DNA of 45,375 bases from a virus, in IMG/VR virus record IMGVR_UViG_3300045747_000259, positions 1 to 45,375 of that record; one strand, given 5' to 3'. The notes beneath the pieces were generated by a model, which ran no database searches, was not told where the DNA came from, and saw nothing but the letters and a program-made list of their open reading frames with translations. Position 1 is the first letter of the stretch. Every line of letters begins with the position of its first letter. Below, in pieces: positions 4,352 through 44,722 of the stretch. The translations under genes and the position numbers were made by a program.

Positions 4352-4367
4352 GCTACATACATGTAGC
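4352..4367. promoter_or_regulatory. Palindrome abutting the SSB promoter
   Basis: GCTACAT-AC-ATGTAGC is a perfect 7+2+7 inverted repeat that ends exactly one base before the -35 TTGACA. A variant with compensating changes, GCTACTT-AC-AAGTAGC, sits in the identical position at 11808-11823. Probably an operator or activator site; it has no U-tract, so it is not a normal terminator. Confidence 0.65.
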
Positions 4368-4397
4368 TTGACACCGACATAACAATCGTGCTATACC
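4368..4397 (+). promoter_or_regulatory. Sigma70-type promoter with extended -10 (SSB gene)
   Basis: TTGACA at 4368-4373, 18-base spacer, TATACC at 4392-4397 preceded by TGC (extended -10). The -35 continues as TTGACACCGACA, shared with promoters at 9003 and 11824 and nearly so at 37378. Transcription from about 4404 gives a leader of roughly 25 bases before the ATG at 4429. Confidence 0.75.
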
Positions 4398-7728: not shown

Positions 7729-9000
7729 ATGATACCTCCATTATATGAACATCAACAGAAAATTATCAACGAGAACAAGAAGAGATGTGGTCTATTTCTC
7801 GGAACAGGCAGTGCTAAAACCCGAACAGCTCTCGAGCTTGCTGAAGGAGCCGTTCTCGTCATTTGTCCAAAGCAACAGCGTGAAGACAGAACATGGGAGC
7901 GTAACGCTGATAAATTCGGAATCATTGTCAATCTTACAGTCATCTCTAAAGAGGACCTAAGAAGAGACTGGGAAACATTACCCAGATACGACACAGTCAT
8001 AATCGATGAGTGCCACAACAATTTAGGTGTGACTCCGGAGACAAGACAGCGTAAAGGGGTACAGATACCAAAAACATCACAGATTTTTGAAGCTACTTTT
8101 ATGTACTTATCAAAGTGCCAACCAAGTAGGTTATACCTCTGTTCCGCTACTCCTGTTAGTAAACCTATGAACATGTGGGCTCTATCAAAGCTGTTCGGAC
8201 ATAACTGGAACTTCTTTGAATTTAGAAGTAAATACTATGCCGAGATACGAATGGGACAACGGCGCATCTGGATGGAGAGAAAGGACGATGCGACTAAAGC
8301 GAGAATGGCCGAGATTATTAAGAAGTACGGCTATACCGGAGGACTCTCGGATTTCTTTGATGTACCGGAACAGACTCATAAGGAAGTGATGATTGATATG
8401 ACTCCACAACAGACTAAGGCTGTTAAGGACTTGATGCTCGCTGAAGCCGACCCGCTGGTGCGTAATGCGAAGATTAGAACAATACAGAATGGAGTTATGT
8501 ACACGAAGAGAGTGGAGAAGATAGGAGACAGAACTGAAGTGATGCGCGACCATACTGAGATATTCCCGTCGAATAAAATAGAGTACATCCTCGAGCGAGC
8601 GATAGAGTTCCCGAAGCTCTTGATATTCGCAAACTACACGGCTCAGATTATTCAGATTGAAAAAGCTCTCAAAGCTGAGGGATATACTGTATCAACACTT
8701 ACCGGACAGACTAAGGATAGGTCTAACTTGATACTAGATGCCGAAAATTCGAAAGCACACATCGTAATTGCTCAAAGTAGTATAAGTGCCGGTTATGAAC
8801 TTCCGAGCTTCCCTTGTGTCATTTTTGCCTCAAAGAGCTGGCAAGCGGTGAACTACTCTCAAGCCCTCGGGAGAGTTCTCAGGAGTAATGCCCTGAAGAA
8901 GAATCTTTACATCCACTTAGTAGTAAAAGGTAAAGATGAGGACTGTCATAAGGCGGTAATGGCAGGAGAGGATTTCTATGAAAAGGTGCTAGAACAGTAA
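7729..9000 (+). CDS. SF2 (SNF2/DEAD-like) helicase, 423 aa
   Basis: Superfamily 2 motifs appear in order: LFLGTGSAKT (about residues 22-31, Walker A, with Ala where Gly is usual), IIDECH (91-96, a DExH-type motif II), LCSATP near 138 (motif III), LLIFANYTAQI near 300 (motif IV), SAGYELP near 350 and QALGRVLRS near 380 (motif VI). Phage proteins of this size usually act in replication, recombination or fork remodelling. It begins one base after the primase stop (TAATATG). The promoter of the next gene starts within two bases of its end. Confidence 0.85.
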   Translation: MIPPLYEHQQKIINENKKRCGLFLGTGSAKTRTALELAEGAVLVICPKQQREDRTWERNADKFGIIVNLTVISKEDLRRDWETLPRYDTVIIDECHNNLGVTPETRQRKGVQIPKTSQIFEATFMYLSKCQPSRLYLCSATPVSKPMNMWALSKLFGHNWNFFEFRSKYYAEIRMGQRRIWMERKDDATKARMAEIIKKYGYTGGLSDFFDVPEQTHKEVMIDMTPQQTKAVKDLMLAEADPLVRNAKIRTIQNGVMYTKRVEKIGDRTEVMRDHTEIFPSNKIEYILERAIEFPKLLIFANYTAQIIQIEKALKAEGYTVSTLTGQTKDRSNLILDAENSKAHIVIAQSSISAGYELPSFPCVIFASKSWQAVNYSQALGRVLRSNALKKNLYIHLVVKGKDEDCHKAVMAGEDFYEKVLEQ

Positions 9001-9002
9001 TG

Positions 9003-9031
9003 TTGACACCGACATCTAATCATGCTACACT
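9003..9031 (+). promoter_or_regulatory. Sigma70-type promoter giving a leaderless mRNA
   Basis: TTGACA (9003-9008), 17-base spacer, TACACT (9026-9031) preceded by TGC. The -35 is extended as TTGACACCGACA. Only seven bases lie between the -10 box and the ATG at 9039, so transcription should begin at or next to the start codon. Confidence 0.8.
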
Positions 9032-9038
9032 CAACTTT

Positions 9039-9236
9039 ATGATAGTAGAACATTATGGAATAAAAGTAGATATACCAGCACCAAAATTTGGTAACGAAAG
9101 GGATATATATATCCGTGATGCGATGGAGGAACTTTATAAAGCTATCAAGAATAAAGCTAAAATGCCGGAGGAGAAGAAGAAAGAGAAAGTGAAAACGATT
9201 ATGCTTTTACTAAAACAATTATCACAACAACTATGA
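9039..9236 (+). CDS. Small basic protein on a predicted leaderless mRNA, 65 aa
   Basis: The ATG at 9039 is chosen because it lies seven bases downstream of a strong promoter; an upstream in-frame start at 9000 would run through the promoter. The protein is helical and Lys-rich in its second half (AKMPEEKKKEKVKTI). No family recognised. Its TGA stop overlaps the next ATG (9233-9236). Confidence 0.7.
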   Translation: MIVEHYGIKVDIPAPKFGNERDIYIRDAMEELYKAIKNKAKMPEEKKKEKVKTIMLLLKQLSQQL

Positions 9237-11807: not shown

Positions 11808-11823
11808 GCTACTTACAAGTAGC
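11808..11823. promoter_or_regulatory. Palindrome abutting the RHH-gene promoter
   Basis: GCTACTT-AC-AAGTAGC, a perfect 7+2+7 inverted repeat directly against the -35 TTGACA. It differs from the site at 4352-4367 by two symmetric changes that preserve the dyad. Confidence 0.65.
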
Positions 11824-11853
11824 TTGACACCGACACCTCTCTTATGCTACACT
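11824..11853 (+). promoter_or_regulatory. Sigma70-type promoter, near-leaderless
   Basis: TTGACA (11824-11829), 18-base spacer, TACACT (11848-11853) preceded by TGC; -35 extended as TTGACACCGACA. The ATG at 11863 is nine bases beyond the -10 box, so at most two or three untranslated bases are expected. Confidence 0.78.
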
Positions 11854-11862
11854 GAGCTAGTT

Positions 11863-12015
11863 ATGAAAAAGAAAACACCGACATTCGTCCGAATTAACTC
11901 TCGAGTAAGACAGGACCAGCATACATTTATTAAAAAGTTAGCAAAGAAGAATAATGTGACTGAAGGAGAAATCCACCGTGACATTATAGACTCTTACATA
12001 AATAACTCATTCTAA
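11863..12015 (+). CDS. Ribbon-helix-helix (Arc/CopG/MetJ-like) DNA-binding protein, 50 aa
   Basis: A short beta strand (TFVRINSRV) is followed by two helices, RQDQHTFIKKLAKKNN and TEGEIHRDIIDSYINN, which is the plan of RHH regulators. These dimerise to bind palindromic operators. The palindrome at 11808-11823 next to its own promoter, and its twin at 4352, are natural candidate targets. First gene of the recombination operon; near-leaderless start. Confidence 0.65.
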   Translation: MKKKTPTFVRINSRVRQDQHTFIKKLAKKNNVTEGEIHRDIIDSYINNSF

Positions 12016-25393: not shown

Positions 25394-27166
25394 CTATAAC
25401 CGTGCCTCAAATCCTAATTTTTTAGCACGTTCATATAGCAGGTCTATGTCAGCTTGATGTTTGTAAGTATAGTAAGAGTCTTGATAAATCTCATCTACTT
25501 CCTCCTTCCATCTATTATTTACTGGATGGTCGTGAAATATCTTTGCCATCTCAGCCCACTTGTATTTACCTATCTTCTCACATATACCTTGAAGTTCATT
25601 ATCGCAACCAACATGGAAGTAATCTGTATTAAAAAACTCACCACCGAGATATGGTAAAAGCTTCTTTGAGGCGAGCCAATGAGTTGCAACATAACCTTCC
25701 GGCCAGTGCTGGTCATTGAGTCCAATCATACCGTCGAGATTCGGGAACGCTCGAGCCATAGCAAATACCGCTTCCTTGAGAAAATCCTTCTCAGCAATAC
25801 AGTCATTACCTAAGAACATAACTAACTGCCCTGTACTATCTTCAACACACTTCTTGAGCATTTTTGGGGCTCCTATGTTAGCTGGAATAGGTCTATCCTC
25901 TCTTACTATTATCTCATAATTATCGTATCCAGCGTTAGCATGGATAGAGTCAATAAGTCTCTGTAACTTCTCTGGTCGTCCAAGAGTAGGAATACAGATT
26001 GATACCTTTAGATAGTAGTGAAGTTCGTATAAGTAGATGTGATAGCCTGGGAGGTACTCAAGACATTTTGAAATATGTTTAAGAGCATTAGGAATATCAC
26101 CGAGCCATCCATAAGCCCAGTAGAGTAGCTCATGAGGTTCTTGCTCGTACATAGAACGGTCATTTGCATAGTAATCAGTCCAACCTATATTGAGAGCCAT
26201 CTCAGCATATATTTTAACGAGAAGATGTTGATTATTTAGTTTATAGAATCGTGCTATTTTAATAATTGCTTCACGACGATTTGGGTCATGGTAAAAAGCT
26301 TTATGATACATAGCTACTTGTTTTTCAGGTTCGTTTATTTGTCCATAGCAATCTCCCATAAATATAATAGACTGAGCACGTTCTGCTGGCCATCCATTCA
26401 TTTCAATGTGCCTTTCAAATTCTGCTAATGCTGAATGAGGTCTATTCGTCCACATCAACTCTCTTGCGAAGTAGTGACTCTGACGGTCCTTATCCTGATT
26501 CTCATAGCAGTCCAATGCTAAACCGACAAGATAATTACCTCGATGCTCTCCACCTGGAATTTGATAATGTTCAAGTAAAATTGTCTCTTCTGGTAAGAGT
26601 AGTCTCTTACCTGTCCCTGAAAGAACCTCATGGACAACTCCTACCCAGTGAATTTTACGACGGTCAAAAAACTTGCTTTGTATAAACTTGATAGCTGGTT
26701 TTCCATACATGTCGTGTGAGAATACGAAGTTGTACTCGAACTGTTCGTACCCATCATCAATAAGTTGATTGAGTTTATCTATATCAAAGTTAGTATATGC
26801 CTCATCAGCATCGAGAGAGCATATCATATTGTTACTTGCTAGAAACGTTGCATAGTTACGAGCAGCAGCAAAGTCGAATAATCTATTCCCTTCTTTTACA
26901 ATAGGAGCTTCACCATTACGAATAAAAACCTTATTGATATTCTCAGCAAGGTCTTTATCTATTATCTTTATGAATTTCTCACCAACCTCTGTAACATTAC
27001 AACCTAATGAACGAGCTAGTTCAGCTGTGCCATCAGTAGAACCTGTATCGAGTAAAATAACCTCACCTCCACGCTTAGTAAATTCCTCTAAACTCTTCAT
27101 AGCTTTAGGAAGTGTTTTTGCTTCGTTTTTTGCTATAAGAACAATCGAAAATTTTGGTGTTTGCAT
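25394..27166 (-). CDS. Two-domain family 2 glycosyltransferase with TPR-like middle, 590 aa
   Basis: First GT2 domain: FSIVLIAKNEAKTL at the N-terminus, LLDTGSTDGT near 40-49 and SLDADEAY near 120 (acidic metal-binding motif). Residues about 220-370 look like TPR-type helices. Second GT2-like domain starts at VSICIPTLGRPEKL near 388 with FLGNDC near 452. It may modify virion or host-surface glycans. I chose the ATG at 27166, one codon after an in-frame TTG, because it lies six bases from the -10 box of its own promoter. Unusual to find one inside a late operon between the hydrolase and holin. Confidence 0.78.
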   Translation of the reverse strand: MQTPKFSIVLIAKNEAKTLPKAMKSLEEFTKRGGEVILLDTGSTDGTAELARSLGCNVTEVGEKFIKIIDKDLAENINKVFIRNGEAPIVKEGNRLFDFAAARNYATFLASNNMICSLDADEAYTNFDIDKLNQLIDDGYEQFEYNFVFSHDMYGKPAIKFIQSKFFDRRKIHWVGVVHEVLSGTGKRLLLPEETILLEHYQIPGGEHRGNYLVGLALDCYENQDKDRQSHYFARELMWTNRPHSALAEFERHIEMNGWPAERAQSIIFMGDCYGQINEPEKQVAMYHKAFYHDPNRREAIIKIARFYKLNNQHLLVKIYAEMALNIGWTDYYANDRSMYEQEPHELLYWAYGWLGDIPNALKHISKCLEYLPGYHIYLYELHYYLKVSICIPTLGRPEKLQRLIDSIHANAGYDNYEIIVREDRPIPANIGAPKMLKKCVEDSTGQLVMFLGNDCIAEKDFLKEAVFAMARAFPNLDGMIGLNDQHWPEGYVATHWLASKKLLPYLGGEFFNTDYFHVGCDNELQGICEKIGKYKWAEMAKIFHDHPVNNRWKEEVDEIYQDSYYTYKHQADIDLLYERAKKLGFEARL

Positions 27167-27172
27167 CAACTT

Positions 27173-27201
27173 AGCGTAGCATATTTTTAAGTTAATGTCG
27201 A
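27173..27201 (-). promoter_or_regulatory. Internal promoter for the glycosyltransferase, leaderless
   Basis: On the minus strand TCGACA (27196-27201), 17-base spacer, TACGCT (27173-27178) preceded by TGC. Six bases separate the -10 from the ATG at 27166. It lacks the CCGACA extension. Confidence 0.6.
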
Positions 27202-28198: not shown

Positions 28199-29815
28199 TT
28201 ACATTATTAGTTCTGCATGCACAAGCTGAATAGTATGTGCTGCAGCAGTTCCTCCGTTATAACTAGCTCCTATACCCAAAGAAGCAACTGTACTATCAAA
28301 ACCAGCTGATGTTACTGAGACAGATTTTTTAGCATTAGATAGACCTGTGGTAGTAAGGTTTGTTGTAAGTCTTGAAATTCCTTGTAAAACTGCTGTTGTA
28401 GTCCCTCCAACTGTTCTAAATGTACAAATTACTTGATATAAACCAACGTCAGCTGCAGCTGTACCTGCACCAAAAGTAAATGCACACCTAGAAGTATCTG
28501 CTATTGTTCCTGCTGTACCAAGTCGTACTGTTACAATTGGTGTAGCTGTACCTGCTGCTGTTTTTGTTACATCAAACCATAATTTATAAGTAGTTCCAAC
28601 AGCAGGTGTAGATGAGAATACTATAAATGAACCAGCTAGATATGTGTCAGCGGCAAAACCAGTTTGAGAAGTTGTACTACTAATATCTAATATAGAACTT
28701 GCTCCAGCTGGACCTGTATAACCAGTATAACCAGTAGCTCCTGAACCAGCTGGTCCAGTGTATCCTGTATAACCTGTTGGACCAGTTACTGTTGAAGCTG
28801 AACCTCCTGGACCTGTGTATCCGGTATATCCTGTTGGTCCCGTAACAGTTGAAGCTGCTCCACCTGGACCTGTATAGCCGGTATAACCTGTTGGGCCTAC
28901 TCCTCCTGGACCTGTATAACCAGTATAGCCAGTTGGACCTGTGACTGTTGAGGCTGTACCGTTAGGACCGGTATATCCGGTATAACCAGTATACCCAGTA
29001 GCTCCTGCACCAGCTGGTCCTGTATAACCAGTGTAACCAGTTGGTCCTGTAACTGTTGAAGCTGTGCCGTTAGGTCCGGTATAACCAGTATAACCAGTAG
29101 CTCCTATTGGTCCTGTGTATCCGGTGTATCCTGTAGCTCCAGCTCCAGCTGGACCTGTATAACCAGTGTATCCGGTATAACCTGTAGCTCCCGCTCCTGT
29201 TGGTCCTGTATAACCAGTGTATCCGGTATATCCTGTGAAGTTACCTGGACCTGTATAACCAGTATATCCAGTAGGCCCGGTTACCGTTGATGCTGTACCA
29301 TTAGGTCCGGTATAACCAGTGTATCCGGTATAACCTGTTGCACCTGCTCCTGCTGGTCCTGTATAACCAGTTGGTCCTGTAACTGTTGAAGCCGCACCAC
29401 CAGGACCTGTATAACCGGTATAACCAGTTGGGCCTGTAACTGTTGAAGCTGCACCTCCGGGTCCAGTATAACCGGTATAACCTGTTGGACCATTGGCACC
29501 AGTGTATCCGGTATATCCTGTTGAACCAGCCCCAGTTGGACCTGTATAACCAGTGTAACCTGTATAACCAGTTGACCCTGCTCCTGCTGGGCCTGTATAA
29601 CCAGTGTATCCTGTATAACCTGTTGACCCTGCTCCTGCTGGTCCTGTATAACCAGTTGGGCCTTGTGTACCTAACTCATAACCGCCTACTGTAACTCCAT
29701 CACCTATGAATATTTTACCTAGTGTAGTATCAAAAAGAATATCCCTACTAAGAGGAGTTACAGCCATTCTCTGAGCTGTCGTCATGTATGGTAATTGAAA
29801 TCGTTCAAGTGACAT
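28199..29815 (-). CDS. Collagen-like virion appendage protein, 538 aa
   Basis: The N-terminus (residues 1-50) resembles virion-attachment domains of fibre/tropism proteins ([25 protein letters not shown]). Residues about 52-372 are a long Gly-x-y tract dominated by GYTGYTGP units with ASTVTGPT interruptions. The C-terminal 165 residues form a beta-rich trimerisation or binding domain. Such collagen-like fibres probably form triple helices protruding from the capsid or neck. The repeat is Tyr-Thr rather than Pro-rich. Confidence 0.7.
28702..29662 (-). repeat. Collagen-like DNA repeat tract 1
   Basis: Tandem degenerate units coding GYTGYTGP/GPxGAASTVT, with many near-identical 18 and 57 base blocks, which can misalign and change length. 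All lie inside the gene at 28199-29815. Confidence 0.85.
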
Positions 29816-30579: not shown

Positions 30580-30608
30580 ATTATATCTTATTTAGTAAAA
30601 GGGAACAA
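30580..30608 (-). promoter_or_regulatory. Possible internal late promoter, leaderless
   Basis: Minus strand TTGTTC (30603-30608), 17-base spacer, TATAAT (30580-30585), eight bases before the ATG at 30571. No TGn extension. Confidence 0.35.
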
Positions 30609-31591: not shown

Positions 31592-32662
31592 TTAACAGTT
31601 TTGTCCAACTATAAAACCATCGTAGGTATTAGCACCTGTACGAATGAATCCGAAAGTATCTCTTTTACTTACTGTAGCAGTAAGAGTTGGCGCAACTCCA
31701 CCTGCCCATCGTACTGTAGCGAACCATGCTGTTATCGTTGAAATAACAGCTCCTTGAAGTATTGAAATGATAAAAGGTTGGTTATTTGTAGCTCCTGTAA
31801 TAGCAAAGGTAATAGCTGTACCAGAAGCGTGTCCTGTTACTATGTGCATATTTTGTGTACTACAGTCGATTGTAACTGTTTGAGCTCCAGTAGCTGGAGT
31901 ATATGTCGCACCTGTCGGAGCTACAGGGAAAGAGCCAGTATAACCGGTGTAACCAGTTGGACCTTGAGTACCTGTTGGTCCTGTATATCCTGTGTAACCG
32001 GTATAACCAGTTGGTCCTGTAACTGTTGAAGCTACACCGTTAGGTCCTGTATAGCCAGTGTAACCTGTTGGTCCTGTAACTGTTGAAGCTGCACCGTTAG
32101 GTCCTGTATAGCCAGTGTAACCTGTTGGTCCTGTAACTGTTGAAGCTGCACCGTTAGGTCCTGTATAGCCAGTATATCCAGTAGCACCGATTGGACCTGT
32201 ATAACCAGTATATCCAGTAGCTCCTATTGTTCCATTTGGTCCTGTATATCCAGTATAGCCAGTTGGTCCTGTAACTGTTGAAGCTGCACCTCCTGGTCCA
32301 GTGTAACCTGTATATCCAGTAGGTCCGGTTACTGTTGAAGCTGTACCGTTAGGTCCTGTATATCCTGTGTATCCTGTATAACCAGTATATCCAGTAAAGT
32401 TACCTGGACCTGTATAGCCGGTGTAACCAGTAGCACCAGCTGGACCTGTGTATCCGGTGTATCCTGTAGGACCAGCTGGAGCAGAAGAGCCTGAGTTTAC
32501 CCAAGCGTGAGTTGTCCCATCCCATACCCAGAAAGTATCTGTACTTCCAACAAGAGCATAAGCACCTTCAATACCCGTAGGATATGCTGCGTTAAGAGCG
32601 GCTGGAGTTGCAAAGAATCCTAGGTTATTTGTGTCTACACTTTTATTGGATAGATATGTCAT
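31592..32662 (-). CDS. Second collagen-like virion appendage protein, 356 aa
   Basis: N-terminal 60 residues ([12 protein letters not shown]...[15 protein letters not shown]) look like an attachment/fibre-tip fold; residues about 65-245 are GYTGYTGP and ASTVTGPT repeats like those at 28199-29815; the last 110 residues are beta-rich. Lies between coiled-coil and lectin genes. Confidence 0.7.
31930..32470 (-). repeat. Collagen-like DNA repeat tract 2
   Basis: Includes near-perfect 57-base units (19 codons) around 32030-32170, the most conserved DNA repeats in the window. Inside the gene at 31592-32662. Confidence 0.85.
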
Positions 32663-33655: not shown

Positions 33656-34690
33656 TTAGATAGTTGAACCGTCACCAGCTGACCACATCCAACCACGAAG
33701 GTCTGATGCACCCATAACTGCTAGTGAGTTGAAGTTTAGCACGAGGTCCTGGTTACCGAGGAGGTCTACAACCGCAGGTTCTGCGCGTGTAGGGAGAGCC
33801 TCAATATACTTGAATCCGAAGTCCTCATTCATCATGTTTGAGTCAAACATACCCCAAGCGAGTCCTGTAAGTCCAAGGTTTTCGTAAGCTGAAAGCTCTA
33901 CAACCTTGAAAGTATCAGTAGCTGGAGCGTTATTGAAGAGGTTTGATTGCTGTGGAGCAAGACCTTTATCAATAGTACCCTTAATTGTCTTAGCATACTG
34001 AGCTGTTGCTGAGCCTGAACGACATACAAGAGTATCGAGCTGAGAAATCAATGGATTTCCACGACCATCCTTCTTGAGTGAGTGCTGACGACGAGCTGCA
34101 AGGAGTGCTGAGTAAGTGAACTGTGGTGAGTTAAGTCCATCAACGATAACGTTTGACCATGTAGGTCCTCCGTCCTCACGAGGGTGAACTGCTGACCAGA
34201 ACTCTACTGCATCTGCTCCAAGTGTTGAGATTGGAGTATTTACACCAACGTTGTTGATTGGAGTCCATGTGAAAGATGTATTGAATCCTTGTGCAAGGAG
34301 AGACTGTGCGAGGTAGTTCTTTGCATGCTCAATAGCATTCTTTCCTTCGATAACCTTTGACTTTACAGAAGACTTGATTTTAGCTGCTGCTGATTCAAAG
34401 AGGAAGAAGTTTGACTGGAATGTAAGACGAACTTTCTTTGTGAAGTGCATCTGTACATAGTTCTTTGTAAATCCTTGGATTGGTGCATCTGATGCTCCAA
34501 TACCTCCATCTGGAATAATTTCGGCCATTCCAAGACCTGTAACTCCAATGTCTGTATAAATACGTTCATTGTTGTCCACTTTGAACATGAAGTCTAGGTA
34601 TTCAGCTTTAACTGAAGGTGATACCTTTGGAGCCACATGCTTGAGCACATTGTTTACGATTACTGCGTAATCATTGATTGTTCCTGTCAT
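33656..34690 (-). CDS. Major capsid protein (HK97-fold candidate), 344 aa
   Basis: Follows the scaffold and decoration genes in the order typical of head modules. Helical N-terminal part (FLFESAAAKIKSSVKSKVIEGKNAIEH), long central mixed region and a beta-rich C-terminus ending SAGDGSTI are consistent with an HK97-type fold. Starts at ATG in ACTATCATG with no Shine-Dalgarno. I did not identify a specific family motif; the call rests on size and neighbours. Confidence 0.7.
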   Translation of the reverse strand: MTGTINDYAVIVNNVLKHVAPKVSPSVKAEYLDFMFKVDNNERIYTDIGVTGLGMAEIIPDGGIGASDAPIQGFTKNYVQMHFTKKVRLTFQSNFFLFESAAAKIKSSVKSKVIEGKNAIEHAKNYLAQSLLAQGFNTSFTWTPINNVGVNTPISTLGADAVEFWSAVHPREDGGPTWSNVIVDGLNSPQFTYSALLAARRQHSLKKDGRGNPLISQLDTLVCRSGSATAQYAKTIKGTIDKGLAPQQSNLFNNAPATDTFKVVELSAYENLGLTGLAWGMFDSNMMNEDFGFKYIEALPTRAEPAVVDLLGNQDLVLNFNSLAVMGASDLRGWMWSAGDGSTI

Positions 34691-37111: not shown

Positions 37112-37342
37112 TTAGTCTGGTATAGGTTCTCCTTGTCTTATATTATCTATAGCTACGACAAGTCTTTGAATAAGATTAGATTCAACTTCAAGTGTTATTG
37201 CATTTACAAGAGTAAGATACTCTGTTCCTGATATAACTGTTGTAAGTTGAGTGCGACATTTTTTTAATAATTCTATTGCTCCTGGAGCGTTATCACTCGT
37301 AGCAAATGTAATCATTTTGTGTTTTATTGTTTGGTCTTCCAT
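37112..37342 (-). CDS. Small protein on a predicted leaderless late mRNA, 76 aa
   Basis: Starts at ATG 37342, seven bases from the -10 box of a strong promoter; an in-frame ATG at 37354 overlaps the box and is rejected. Helical and hydrophobic/charged mixture. First gene of the head/tail transcript. Confidence 0.65.
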   Translation of the reverse strand: MEDQTIKHKMITFATSDNAPGAIELLKKCRTQLTTVISGTEYLTLVNAITLEVESNLIQRLVVAIDNIRQGEPIPD

Positions 37343-37349
37343 ATAAAAA

Positions 37350-37378
37350 AGCATAGCACATAACGGTGTCGGTGTAAA
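37350..37378 (-). promoter_or_regulatory. Late sigma70-type promoter, leaderless
   Basis: Minus strand TTTACA (37373-37378) continuing CCGACA, 17-base spacer, TATGCT (37350-37355) preceded by TGC. Matches the box of the early promoters with one change. Seven bases then the ATG at 37342. Confidence 0.75.
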
Positions 37379-37478: not shown

Positions 37479-37745
37479 CTATTTCTTTGGTACTTTTTTT
37501 TTGAAGATACTGTGCCAAGCTTTATGATGTTGTACTGGTACTTCTTCTTGCTTTACTTCTTCCTCTTTCTGTAGATAGTAAATATAAGCTTCTACATACT
37601 CAGGAATAACAGCAAGTCGTTTGTATTTAAAAACATCAATTACACAGTCTTTTATTTCATTGTACTTCCAAAAGTAAGCAGTTTGAAATAGTAGTTGTTC
37701 ATCACCATCTGTTTCTTTTAGTAGTTGAATTATATATAAGAACAT
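37479..37745 (-). CDS. HNH-related protein interrupted at an A9 tract, 88 aa
   Basis: The frame ends KAWHSIFKKK then VPKK. A -1 shift at the A9 run (37494-37502) continues as STKEIVELINSTWIDPAVKLNITKRK to a stop at 37414, and this aligns with the C-terminus of the neighbour at 38183 (AWHNLF...EQIVKIINDIWLDPDFK). So the gene is frameshifted, slipped or mis-sequenced. GAGGTG precedes its start, one of the few Shine-Dalgarno sites. Confidence 0.6.
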   Translation of the reverse strand: MFLYIIQLLKETDGDEQLLFQTAYFWKYNEIKDCVIDVFKYKRLAVIPEYVEAYIYYLQKEEEVKQEEVPVQHHKAWHSIFKKKVPKK

Positions 37746-37871: not shown

Positions 37872-37968
37872 TTTTATCTCCTAGTAAGTAGATTGTATAT
37901 ACACCTTGCTCATCAATTATGACAAGAAAGACCAAGTCTTTATGTCTAACAATGAGAATGGTATTCAT
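37861..37968 (-). CDS. Hypothetical 35-aa peptide
   Basis: Overlaps the preceding stop as ATGA (37965-37968) and the next gene by 11 bases. Beta-like, hydrophobic (LVFLVIIDEQGVYTIYLL). Possibly translated by coupling. Confidence 0.4.
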   Translation of the reverse strand: MNTILIVRHKDLVFLVIIDEQGVYTIYLLGDKNDL

Positions 37969-38180
37969 TTAGTTTCTCCAAAGTCTAGTGGTTTTTGAGC
38001 TTGTTCACTCTCACACTTTTTGGAGCAAGTCCCGCTATCTGCATACCTTCCATAGTACCCGTAGAGTATTGTCTTACCACAAGTGATACATGGAGTAAAA
38101 AGTAGAGTTACCTCCTTCTTACCCTCTTTATCACTTTTTGGTGTATAGTCGATAGGTTTGTTATATCTGTTGCTTCCCAT
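37965..38180 (-). CDS. Zinc-finger-like protein, 71 aa
   Basis: C-x2-C (CITCGK, about 31-36) and C-x3-C (GTCSKKCES, about 50-58) as in treble-clef fingers. Strong AAAGGAGGT five bases from the ATG, overlapping the previous stop. Confidence 0.65.
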   Translation of the reverse strand: MGSNRYNKPIDYTPKSDKEGKKEVTLLFTPCITCGKTILYGYYGRYADSGTCSKKCESEQAQKPLDFGETK

Positions 38181-38182
38181 GA

Positions 38183-38401
38183 TTACCTCCTTTGTAAAAC
38201 AAATTTAAAGTCTGGGTCTAACCAGATGTCATTGATAATCTTTACAATCTGTTCAGCAGAATAATTCCTAAAAAGATTGTGCCATGCTCTATGTTTTGAA
38301 ACAGAAACATGACTCATATTTTCATCAATATTCTTACCTCCGAGAGAACGAGGTTTTCGATGGTGCCAATCATGGTGTACTTTCTTCTCACGTTTAGCCA
38401 T
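38183..38401 (-). CDS. HNH endonuclease-like protein, 72 aa
   Basis: Carries HHDWHHRKPRSLGGKN followed by a His-rich helix (SKHRAWHNLF), a Cys-free HNH-type arrangement I associate with CPR and phage genomes. The ATG at 38401 has GGGAGGTT in front; an in-frame ATG 21 bases upstream covers that site and is rejected. Confidence 0.65.
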   Translation of the reverse strand: MAKREKKVHHDWHHRKPRSLGGKNIDENMSHVSVSKHRAWHNLFRNYSAEQIVKIINDIWLDPDFKFVLQRR

Positions 38402-39087: not shown

Positions 39088-41232
39088 TTATTGTCCTGGG
39101 AAGAAAGGAAGGTTAGCAGCCCTACCCATAGAAGCATCAACAGCTGAGCCCATTGGTGATTGAGGTCGTGGTACTTCATTTGGATTTTGTGGTTGCATTG
39201 GGTTTGTTCCATCTTGAGTCATTGAAGAACCTTTACTGAGAGCCATAGGTCCAGCTGATTCACCTCCAGCCATTGTCTGCATAGCAGTATGCTGTGCATC
39301 CTGTTGCATCTGTTGCTGTTGCATCTGTTGCTGTAGTTGTGAAGGTTGCTTGTTCAAGATAGCATCGTACTCAGCTTTACTAATATAGTCATAAATATCC
39401 TGTCCTTGAATATCAAGAAGTTTCTCAAGAGCCATGAGCTGTGAAGCCGCGGCCTCGGGGTCCTGATTTCTCATAGAATAGATAAGAGTAATTTGATTTG
39501 TAATAACAGGGAAGAGCGCCATAAATGTTTGCTTCTGTATTTCAATAGAAGGTAGAAGCATTGAATCTGGGTCTATAATGAAATCAACATAGTCGCTCAT
39601 GTGGCCGTGAGCCTTCATCTCATCGAATAACTTCTTTGAAGAAATTGTTCTCGTTGGTACATTCTCGAGGAGTTCTCCTTCTGGAGTAAAGTCAAAACCG
39701 AGGCGTAGGTTCTTTGAAGCTGCTACTGCATGCTTACCTGTACCCATTCCTTCATCATCAACAATCTCTTGTGATTCCATGAAGTAGTCCGGATTCTGCT
39801 TTGTAAACTCAGCGAGCTGGTCCTGAGAGTCAATCATAAATACCTTATCAACAGAGTATGTCTGCATAATCCAAGTATTAGCAATATGCGCATCTTTCTG
39901 TAGACCTGTAACAACTGAGTTCTTTGGAGGAGTAAGACGATTATACGCAGCTTCCTTGAGAATAACTGTAGAACCGAGAGTTGTCTCAGACTGAGCTCCG
40001 GCTACAATGTTATTAACACCTGTGTTCTCCTCGATATTCTGCTTCTGCTTATCTCCAAAGAGCATACCTTGCTGTACGTTTCCAGAAGTCTTCACAACAT
40101 CAATATCTGTACCAGGATGCTTAGGGTTTACGATGTTTGGACCACGTTTATATGTAGCTGTACCGTTCTGTACTTGAGCCCCGAAAAGAAGAGGGAATAT
40201 TTCTGCTTCCACCTGCTGAGCATTAAGAGAGTTGATATATGTATAGATAGCAGTATTACCTCGCATCATTTCATAGAGTCCAACTCCGTGTGGGTCGTTA
40301 GGATTCTTTACAAAACAACGAGCTGTAACAATAGAACCATGTGAGCCATCGTTTGGAAGTTCACCGTCATAAATAACCATCTTTCCGCAAACAATAACGT
40401 ATCGGTTTAGAAGTTCATTCTCGTAGTATCCAATAGTTACGGATGTATGTAGCTTCTCACGGTTTTCATCTTTAGCTTCTTCCGATACAGAACAATACTC
40501 GAGATTTTTCTTATTCTTTTCAGCATCCGGATACATCGCATAGAACTCATCCTTTAGCATATCTTTTTCGTAGTATGCTTCTCCCCATGACCAATAGTCT
40601 CCGTGGTTGAATCCGACTCCGAGCCATGTTCTTTTAACATCCATAGGCTCACGGTAAATATCATCGTATAGAATCTTATCAACTCCTTTACGTTTTACTT
40701 GTACTCGACGAGGGTAGACACGCCAAGCAGCCCATCCGTATGTGAATAGGTTTTGATACACCATCATAAGAGTATTCTCTCCGTTACCACCTGTCATACT
40801 CCAACTTCTCTTCCAAAGCTCATAAGCAGCTTTCGCGTAGATTTTATCATCAGCCACAACTGTAGCATCCGGCAACTTCCCCGCGAGTACACTTGTAGCA
40901 ATCATAATCTTTGAGAAAGCTATCGGCTCTTGAGATACAGGTACACCGGAACGATTCTGGTCACGGTCCGTTAATTTCTGTGGATATACGTTAATATCGT
41001 ACGCACCGTTGGCCATTTTATTGTAGAACACCATTGAACCCCATCCAGATTTCTCGTAGAGCTTCTGTCCATAGGTTACGTTCGTATTTACGAGATTTAT
41101 TTCAACTTCTGCGGCTAGAGCATCGAATTTTTCGCGATATTGCGACTTCTTCATCTCTTTTTTCTTATTTTCGATAAATTCTATCGTTTTTTTGTCGTCT
41201 TTTTTAACTTTCGCAGAGGAAGTTGGATTCAT
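39088..41232 (-). CDS. Portal protein (P22-like), 714 aa
   Basis: Large portal with a helical C-terminus that ends in a Gln/Met-rich tail (from about residue 610). The N-terminus is Lys-rich. Central parts such as TYGWAAWRVYPRRV and LNAQQVEAEIFPLLF are portal-like. Position directly after the large terminase agrees. Portals form the 12-mer that threads DNA into the head. Confidence 0.8.
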   Translation of the reverse strand: MNPTSSAKVKKDDKKTIEFIENKKKEMKKSQYREKFDALAAEVEINLVNTNVTYGQKLYEKSGWGSMVFYNKMANGAYDINVYPQKLTDRDQNRSGVPVSQEPIAFSKIMIATSVLAGKLPDATVVADDKIYAKAAYELWKRSWSMTGGNGENTLMMVYQNLFTYGWAAWRVYPRRVQVKRKGVDKILYDDIYREPMDVKRTWLGVGFNHGDYWSWGEAYYEKDMLKDEFYAMYPDAEKNKKNLEYCSVSEEAKDENREKLHTSVTIGYYENELLNRYVIVCGKMVIYDGELPNDGSHGSIVTARCFVKNPNDPHGVGLYEMMRGNTAIYTYINSLNAQQVEAEIFPLLFGAQVQNGTATYKRGPNIVNPKHPGTDIDVVKTSGNVQQGMLFGDKQKQNIEENTGVNNIVAGAQSETTLGSTVILKEAAYNRLTPPKNSVVTGLQKDAHIANTWIMQTYSVDKVFMIDSQDQLAEFTKQNPDYFMESQEIVDDEGMGTGKHAVAASKNLRLGFDFTPEGELLENVPTRTISSKKLFDEMKAHGHMSDYVDFIIDPDSMLLPSIEIQKQTFMALFPVITNQITLIYSMRNQDPEAAASQLMALEKLLDIQGQDIYDYISKAEYDAILNKQPSQLQQQMQQQQMQQDAQHTAMQTMAGGESAGPMALSKGSSMTQDGTNPMQPQNPNEVPRPQSPMGSAVDASMGRAANLPFFPGQ

Positions 41233-42985: not shown

Positions 42986-43504
42986 TTAAAAGTCCGTGTC
43001 GATATTATACAACGGGTCATCTTCCGGGTCCTTGTATTTCACATTCCTGTACTTTTTCGGTACGAGTTCCGCTACATTATCAACAATCTGTGGTGCGGTG
43101 TTAATCGTCTGGTTCTCCACCTGTTGGAGTATCACCGACCTCAGTCTATTATTGTCCTTCCCCTTCTTTGTTTCGTACTCGTCCTTCGGATTAAATTTCG
43201 CCCACGCTCCTCCTATAGCATTAAGCGCCCCAATCAGGTCTTTATTTGAGAAGTCTTTCACACCTCGTGATTTGAACTCGTGCATTATGGACAGCGCGAG
43301 GCTGTTCGATTCCTGTGCGAGCATGTTCATCGCATTATTGTACCCCTTCGTCTTCTCAATTTTATCTTTTGGAGAAGCTGCTACTGTAGCCGAATACCCG
43401 AGGTCCCGAGCAATTCCTGAGCGGTTTTCACCTTTAGCACCCCAAACACGACGAGCATACGCCATCTGTCGGAGAGTAGAACCGTTTTTTGGTATCTGTG
43501 GCAT
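42986..43504 (-). CDS. terS: Small terminase subunit candidate, 172 aa
   Basis: N-terminal ARRVWGAKGENRSGIARDLGYS resembles a helix-turn-helix DNA-binding segment, then helical sequence for oligomerisation. Immediately upstream of terL, as usual. TATAAT six bases before its ATG suggests a leaderless start of its own. Confidence 0.7.
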   Translation of the reverse strand: MPQIPKNGSTLRQMAYARRVWGAKGENRSGIARDLGYSATVAASPKDKIEKTKGYNNAMNMLAQESNSLALSIMHEFKSRGVKDFSNKDLIGALNAIGGAWAKFNPKDEYETKKGKDNNRLRSVILQQVENQTINTAPQIVDNVAELVPKKYRNVKYKDPEDDPLYNIDTDF

Positions 43505-43510
43505 AGATAT

Positions 43511-43516
43511 ATTATA
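43511..43516 (-). promoter_or_regulatory. Extended -10 box for the terminase operon
   Basis: TATAAT preceded by TGA on the minus strand, six bases before the ATG at 43504. No good -35; extended -10 promoters can do without. Confidence 0.45.
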
Positions 43517-43519
43517 TCA

Positions 43520-43774
43520 TTAGAAATATCCTTCAGGGAAGTTACCAGGAGGTAGTGGTACACCGTTATCATCAACATATACATTGGCTGGGTACATAGC
43601 GATATTTCTCTTTCTTGTCTCATTCTCCTCTTCTTTCTTTTCAATATCTTTCACATACTCCTCAATAAGAGTAATCATAACTTTATTCATAGACTTGCCA
43701 CTGTAAGCCGCTTTACCTTTAAACTTGTTTCTCAAGTCTTCGCTTATCTTTAATATAATTTGTTTGTTATTCAT
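43520..43774 (-). CDS. Ribbon-helix-helix regulator, 84 aa
   Basis: QIILKISEDLRNKFKGKAAY (strand then helix) and SMNKVMITLIEEYVKDIEK (second helix) fit Arc/CopG-type repressors. The C-terminal half is Pro/Gly-rich. It faces the repeat-rich hub and its own -35 overlaps a repeat, so autoregulation and control of the hub are likely. A partition-protein role (ParR-like) is an alternative, though no ATPase partner is seen. Confidence 0.65.
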   Translation of the reverse strand: MNNKQIILKISEDLRNKFKGKAAYSGKSMNKVMITLIEEYVKDIEKKEEENETRKRNIAMYPANVYVDDNGVPLPPGNFPEGYF

Positions 43775-43782
43775 ATATTGTA

Positions 43783-43811
43783 ACTATAACATATATTCAT
43801 ATTAAATACAA
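43783..43811 (-). promoter_or_regulatory. RHH promoter overlapping a hub repeat
   Basis: Minus strand TTGTAT (43806-43811), 17-base spacer, TATAGT (43783-43788) preceded by TGT. Eight bases to the ATG at 43774. The -35 touches the CCAACACAACG repeat starting at 43812. Confidence 0.55.
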
Positions 43812-44665: not shown

Positions 44666-44674
44666 TTATCCACA
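44666..44674 (+). promoter_or_regulatory. DnaA-box match
   Basis: TTATCCACA, the bacterial consensus, in the hub 20 bases before the early promoter. A single copy could occur by chance. Confidence 0.45.
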
Positions 44675-44693
44675 ACTTTCTTTTACATACCAC

Positions 44694-44722
44694 TTGCAAT
44701 AGCACCGGCACCGTGCTACTAT
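44694..44722 (+). promoter_or_regulatory. Early promoter P1
   Basis: TTGCAA (44694-44699), 17-base spacer, TACTAT (44717-44722) preceded by TGC. A leader of about 38 bases with a GC-rich dyad (GTACC...GGTAC-like ends) precedes the ATG at 44767. This would drive the first early cluster through the junction. Confidence 0.6.

Follow-up and report, generated by a model that had tools for sequence, protein, structure and literature searches.

Sigma70-type promoters adjacent to start codons predict leaderless or near-leaderless genes in a family of uncultivated phages

The window, the whole 45,375-bp stretch of DNA analysed here, is the record of an uncultivated phage with terminal repeats of 149 bp. 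On its plus strand, a promoter at 9003–9031 has the form TTGACACCGACA-N8-TGCTACACT and comprises a -35 element TTGACA (9003–9008), a CCGACA hexamer within the spacer (9009–9014) and an extended -10 element, TGC-TACACT (9023–9031). It conforms to a sigma70-type promoter, taken as a TTGACA -35 and a TATAAT-like -10 lying 17 ± 1 nt apart. The elements named in the original prediction, which are the TTGACA, a 17-nt spacer, TGC before TACACT at 9026–9031 and 7 nt between the -10 and the ATG at 9039, are all present, and this promoter is almost certainly real. The ATG opens a small ORF of 65 aa (9039–9236, plus strand) that is predicted to be leaderless. When a -10 element ends 6 nt before an ATG, the canonical transcription start is the A of that ATG; at 9039 the gap is 7 nt, which makes the purine A the eighth base, a position that RNA polymerase commonly selects. 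A leaderless start at ATG 9039 is plausible from this geometry.

The same frame also contains an ATG at 9000, overlooked by the original prediction, which shares a TAATG with the stop codon of the helicase gene. Being in frame with 9039 and overlapping that stop, it is a possible start for the ORF. The product would then be 78 aa long with its translation coupled to the helicase stop, the 9003 motif would be intragenic or serve only downstream genes, and the gene would not be leaderless; such an arrangement would be in keeping with the frequent contact or overlap between neighbouring genes of this genome. However, the 13 extra codons spell a promoter motif that recurs at the non-coding positions 4368, 11824 and 37378, which favours ATG 9039 as the start. 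Several relatives whose downstream genes are unrelated also carry a TTGAC-type promoter just past the helicase stop, often with an ATG 4–10 nt away. The start at 9000 is considered unlikely. A search of viral contigs detected no relatives of the ORF product.

The motif in question is the 12-mer TTGACACCGACA, which is found in three exact copies (4368, 9003 and 11824) and one copy with a single mismatch (37378, minus strand), against a chance mean of 0.17; none of 100 shuffles reached four copies. All four are followed 8–9 nt downstream by a -10 of the form TGCTA[TC][AG]C[TC]. The gap from the -10 to the ATG is 7 nt at 9039, 9 nt at 11863 and 7 nt at 37342. The promoter at 4368–4397 (plus strand, TTGACACCGACA-N9-TGCTATACC), absent from the original prediction, lies 31 nt from ATG 4429 and is leadered, so the promoter does not in itself dictate leaderlessness. 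The copy before ATG 11863 occupies 11824–11853 (plus strand, TTGACACCGACA-N9-TGCTACACT, or TTGACA-N18-TGCTACACT) and has a hairpin, GCTACTTACAAGTAGC, upstream. That before ATG 37342 occupies 37350–37378 (minus strand, TTTACACCGACA-N8-TGCTATGCT, or TTTACA-N17-TGCTATGCT) and has a terminator-like hairpin upstream. A hairpin GCTAC...GTAGC directly abuts TTGACA at 4352–4367 and 11808–11823, and a similar stretch precedes a promoter of the related contig G011 (16815).

The claim that the same arrangement occurs at seven sites holds in part. A -35 together with an extended -10 is found at 9003, before 11863 and 37342, and also before the glycosyltransferase start at 27166 (TCGACA-N17-TGCTACGCT, 27173–27201, minus strand, 6 nt from the ATG). 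The remaining sites, all on the minus strand, are looser: TTGTAT-N17-TGTTATAGT at 43783–43811, 8 nt from ATG 43774, has a weak -35; the extended -10 TGATATAAT at 43511–43519, 6 nt from ATG 43504, lacks a good -35; and a weak TATAAT at 30580–30585, 8 nt from ATG 30571, has neither TG nor -35 and precedes a gene with a single weak relative.

Related phages bear on several of these genes. The gene at 11863–12015 (plus strand) encodes a small ribbon-helix-helix (RHH)-like protein conserved in 15 relatives; the assignment is based on its sequence pattern, and a Pfam comparison of the product gave no RHH match above the cut-off. Four relatives hold the promoter (TTGACASCGACA) at this gene but with leaders of 27–42 nt. 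The original prediction had itself named shifted promoter-ATG spacing in related phages as grounds for rejection, and at 11863 this is what the relatives show. Orthologs of the 27166 and 37342 genes have no such promoter in relatives, and ortholog starts favour 27166 over TTG 27169 and 37342 over ATG 37354. The gene starting at 43774 encodes an Arc-like RHH protein and begins the late operon; a protein search of viral contigs found no relatives, and orthologs located by synteny in L079, L081 and L082 have the -10 at 9, 6 and 6 nt from the ATG. Gene callers that choose the longest ORF may misplace starts in such phages, as with 9000 for 9039, 37354 for 37342 and 27169 for 27166.

The most informative gene is the one starting at ATG 43504 (42986–43504, minus strand), a small-terminase-like gene (terS) that is the first of the packaging genes, directly upstream of the large terminase gene (terL), and is predicted to be leaderless. 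It was assigned from a family alignment (A2) and its position next to terL, and has no PHROG match of its own. Eighty loci and the window yielded 56 non-redundant upstream regions, in which the terS ATG was picked from the protein alignment, independently of any promoter. The motif TGnTAnnnT ends 6, 7, 8 and 9 nt before the ATG in 13, 7, 6 and 2 of the 56 loci, whereas any single distance between 10 and 39 nt has 0–1 loci. Counting any -10, 52 of 56 have one at 6–9 nt, 50 at 6–8 nt and 29 at exactly 6 nt, although these sequences are related and not independent, so that the counts carry no formal probability. A -35 matching at least five of six positions accompanies 30/56 loci at a spacing of 16–18 nt. 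By comparison, none of the 56 neighbouring terL starts in the same phages has TGnTAnnnT at 6–9 nt. The close relatives L079 and L080 carry a different gene upstream of terS with TGATATAATATATCTATG unchanged, and in the terS upstream regions listed the -10 occupies the usual Shine-Dalgarno position. The promoters and their spacing can be read directly in the DNA, and at this late gene the spacing is conserved; leaderless or near-leaderless initiation of terS is strongly supported as a prediction. A spacing at one late gene has been held across dozens of diverged phages, apparently by selection. Conservation of the -10-to-ATG distance, which the original prediction had proposed to survey, is therefore found at terS and, in the three closest relatives holding the gene, at 43774, but not at 11863, 27166 and 37342. 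A conserved TAGCAC[CAT] sequence is also seen near the terS -35 in 29/56 loci (L083–L140), usually just upstream of TTGACA and sometimes in the spacer.

The wider family shows the same preference. A helicase search retrieved 19 related viral contigs. Of the 21 family records, 10 contain TTGACASCGACA and none contains the reversed control pattern. In a set of 720 non-redundant gene starts drawn from 19 genomes, the distance of TGnTAnnnT from the ATG has its peak at precisely 6 nt (14 versus 1.05 per position, P=8e-12), and 23 starts have it at 6–9 nt (P=1.4e-10). Among 31 strong intergenic promoters, collected without use of ATG position, an ORF ATG follows at 4–11 nt in 14 and at 20–93 nt in 16. 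With this peak at 6 nt, leaderless starts gain support as a style that recurs in the family, as had been proposed under the term "house style"; the style is not uniform, with about half of the strong intergenic promoters leadered. The statement that almost all genes lack Shine-Dalgarno sites is borne out, as matches of at least five of six positions are not enriched among family genes (47/720 versus 79/720 in a shifted control). Strong Shine-Dalgarno sequences are present in three adjacent small minus-strand genes, at 37479–37745 (GAGGTG), 37965–38180 (AGGAGGT) and 38183–38401 (GGGAGGT); this trio, with starts at 37745, 38180 and 38401, was possibly imported from a host that uses such sites.

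Two other readings of the ATG-proximal motifs need to be weighed. One is that TGnTAnnnT near start codons arises by chance from AT-rich sequence and from stop codons that precede starts. Plain TAnnnT is indeed also elevated at 0–3 nt through stop codons, and generic TTGACA-N15–19-TAnnnT arrangements are not above chance in the window (4 seen versus 4.1 expected). Such an origin is highly improbable, however, and already disfavoured for terS, since TGnTAnnnT is elevated at no other distance, the terL starts used as a control gave a negative result and -35 boxes stand 16–18 nt from the -10 at 30 of the 56 terS sites. The other is that the promoters are real and their leaderlessness incidental: short leaders would vary in length, translation would proceed mainly from longer upstream transcripts, and the ATG-proximal promoters would be minor. 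Dense same-strand operons hold most of the genes, in the window terS follows the RHH gene at a distance of 15 nt, so that an upstream message can also carry it, and spacing does vary, from 6 to 9 nt at terS and between 9 and 27–42 nt in the 11863 family. A drifting distance would nevertheless not yield the sharp terS spacing at 6 nt with its near-empty interval from 10 to 39 nt, and this alternative appears quite unlikely.

A further group of promoters appears to serve early genes. At 44666–44722 (plus strand), a DnaA box, TTATCCACA (44666–44674), precedes a putative promoter TTGCAA-N17-TGCTACTAT (44694–44722), a probable leadered early promoter, and seven relatives share the layout (G001, G005, G007, G012, G014, G015 and G019). 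The DnaA box TTATCCACA lies 17–19 bp, or one helical turn more at 27–28 bp, upstream of the putative early-promoter -35. There are eight non-redundant cases of this layout against almost none with permuted boxes, and the box occurs about five times as often as expected. A spacer hexamer follows TTGACA at 9009–9014, 11830–11835 and 4374–4379, as well as in G005 (15023) and G014 (about 21775). Early-promoter spacers often contain 6-bp tandem repeats, such as CCGACA CCGACA, GTGACA GTGACA and ACCAAC ACCAAC, or alternatively the palindrome TGTCGGCACCGACA (L009, L011 and L022). These repeats and the palindrome suggest an operator; the CCGACA spacer hexamer of early promoters is probably one, and the 11863 RHH protein is possibly its binder.

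Searches directed at the host did not identify one. Alignment of the helicase to GTDB genomes gave a Cytophagaceae MAG as the sole match (23%), which was judged no relative. Among isolates, the helicase matched only a Thermus phage at 22%, and the terminase matched at most at about 33%, mainly to Vibrio phages. The host search with the proteins at 33659–34690 and 39091–41232 gave no matches, and Rfam and tRNA scans were empty. Patescibacteria were also considered as a host, and no evidence for them was found. Collagen-like repeats are present in two proteins, at 28199–29815 and 31592–32662.

The reading that best accommodates the promoter data, to which we assign a probability of about 0.72, is that sigma70-type promoters, ATG-adjacent at a subset of genes, give leaderless or near-leaderless mRNAs. 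Host sigma70-type RNA polymerase would act at (TTGACA)-N17-TGnTAnnnT promoters, and at the genes concerned the -10 would be placed 6–9 nt before the ATG, so that RNA is expected to start at the A of the ATG or no more than about three bases from it. The 5'-terminal AUG itself would then recruit ribosomes. Both the transcription starts and the leader-free translation are what we infer from the DNA. Because the same promoters also serve leadered genes, leaderlessness would be a property of particular genes and not of a promoter class. A broader scenario is more speculative and rather doubtful, namely that a family-wide leaderless small-terminase mRNA turns on the late packaging operon in a host group that is routinely leaderless, with early promoters built from a DnaA box, TTGACA and a hexamer operator.

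The classical leaderless phage mRNA is that of lambda cI, transcribed from PRM, a host sigma70 promoter, with its start at the AUG. Both cI and the genes described here are phage genes with host sigma70-type promoters that start, or are predicted to start, at the AUG; cI encodes a lysogenic repressor, whereas the best case here is a late packaging gene conserved family-wide. In the Thermus phage P23-45, middle and late transcripts are reportedly leaderless (a finding attributed to Berdygulova et al. 2011), and the later promoters are said to depend on phage factors that remodel the host RNA polymerase. The two phages are alike in the leaderless transcripts of later genes, predicted in the present case. 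Unlike P23-45, no polymerase-remodelling factor was identified here, and the promoters resemble ordinary sigma70 promoters with a -35.

Little was found in the literature on leaderless late genes of phages, although phage transcripts have been described as often leaderless (PMC5312081) and lambda is named in general terms with regard to leaderless mRNA (PMC3160421). In bacteria, leaderless genes have an accepted sequence mark, a -10 lying about 12 bp upstream of the start codon (Zheng et al. 2011, PMC3160421), and this ATG-adjacent -10 signature has been tested in Deinococcus (Deinococcus-Thermus 2025, PMC12340547). The bacterial genes in these studies (PMC3160421, PMC12340547) resemble those predicted here in a -10 that ends ~6 nt before the ATG, in little or no Shine-Dalgarno sequence and in an extended TG in AT-rich genomes. 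They differ in being host chromosomal genes, whereas the present ones belong to a phage family, have many good -35 elements and are predicted from sequence. This phage adds a well-supported example to a leaderless layout already known, and the family-wide conservation of that layout at a late packaging gene is unusual. Leaderless phage genes have been known singly; here the layout is surveyed across dozens of phages and predicts concrete 5' ends.
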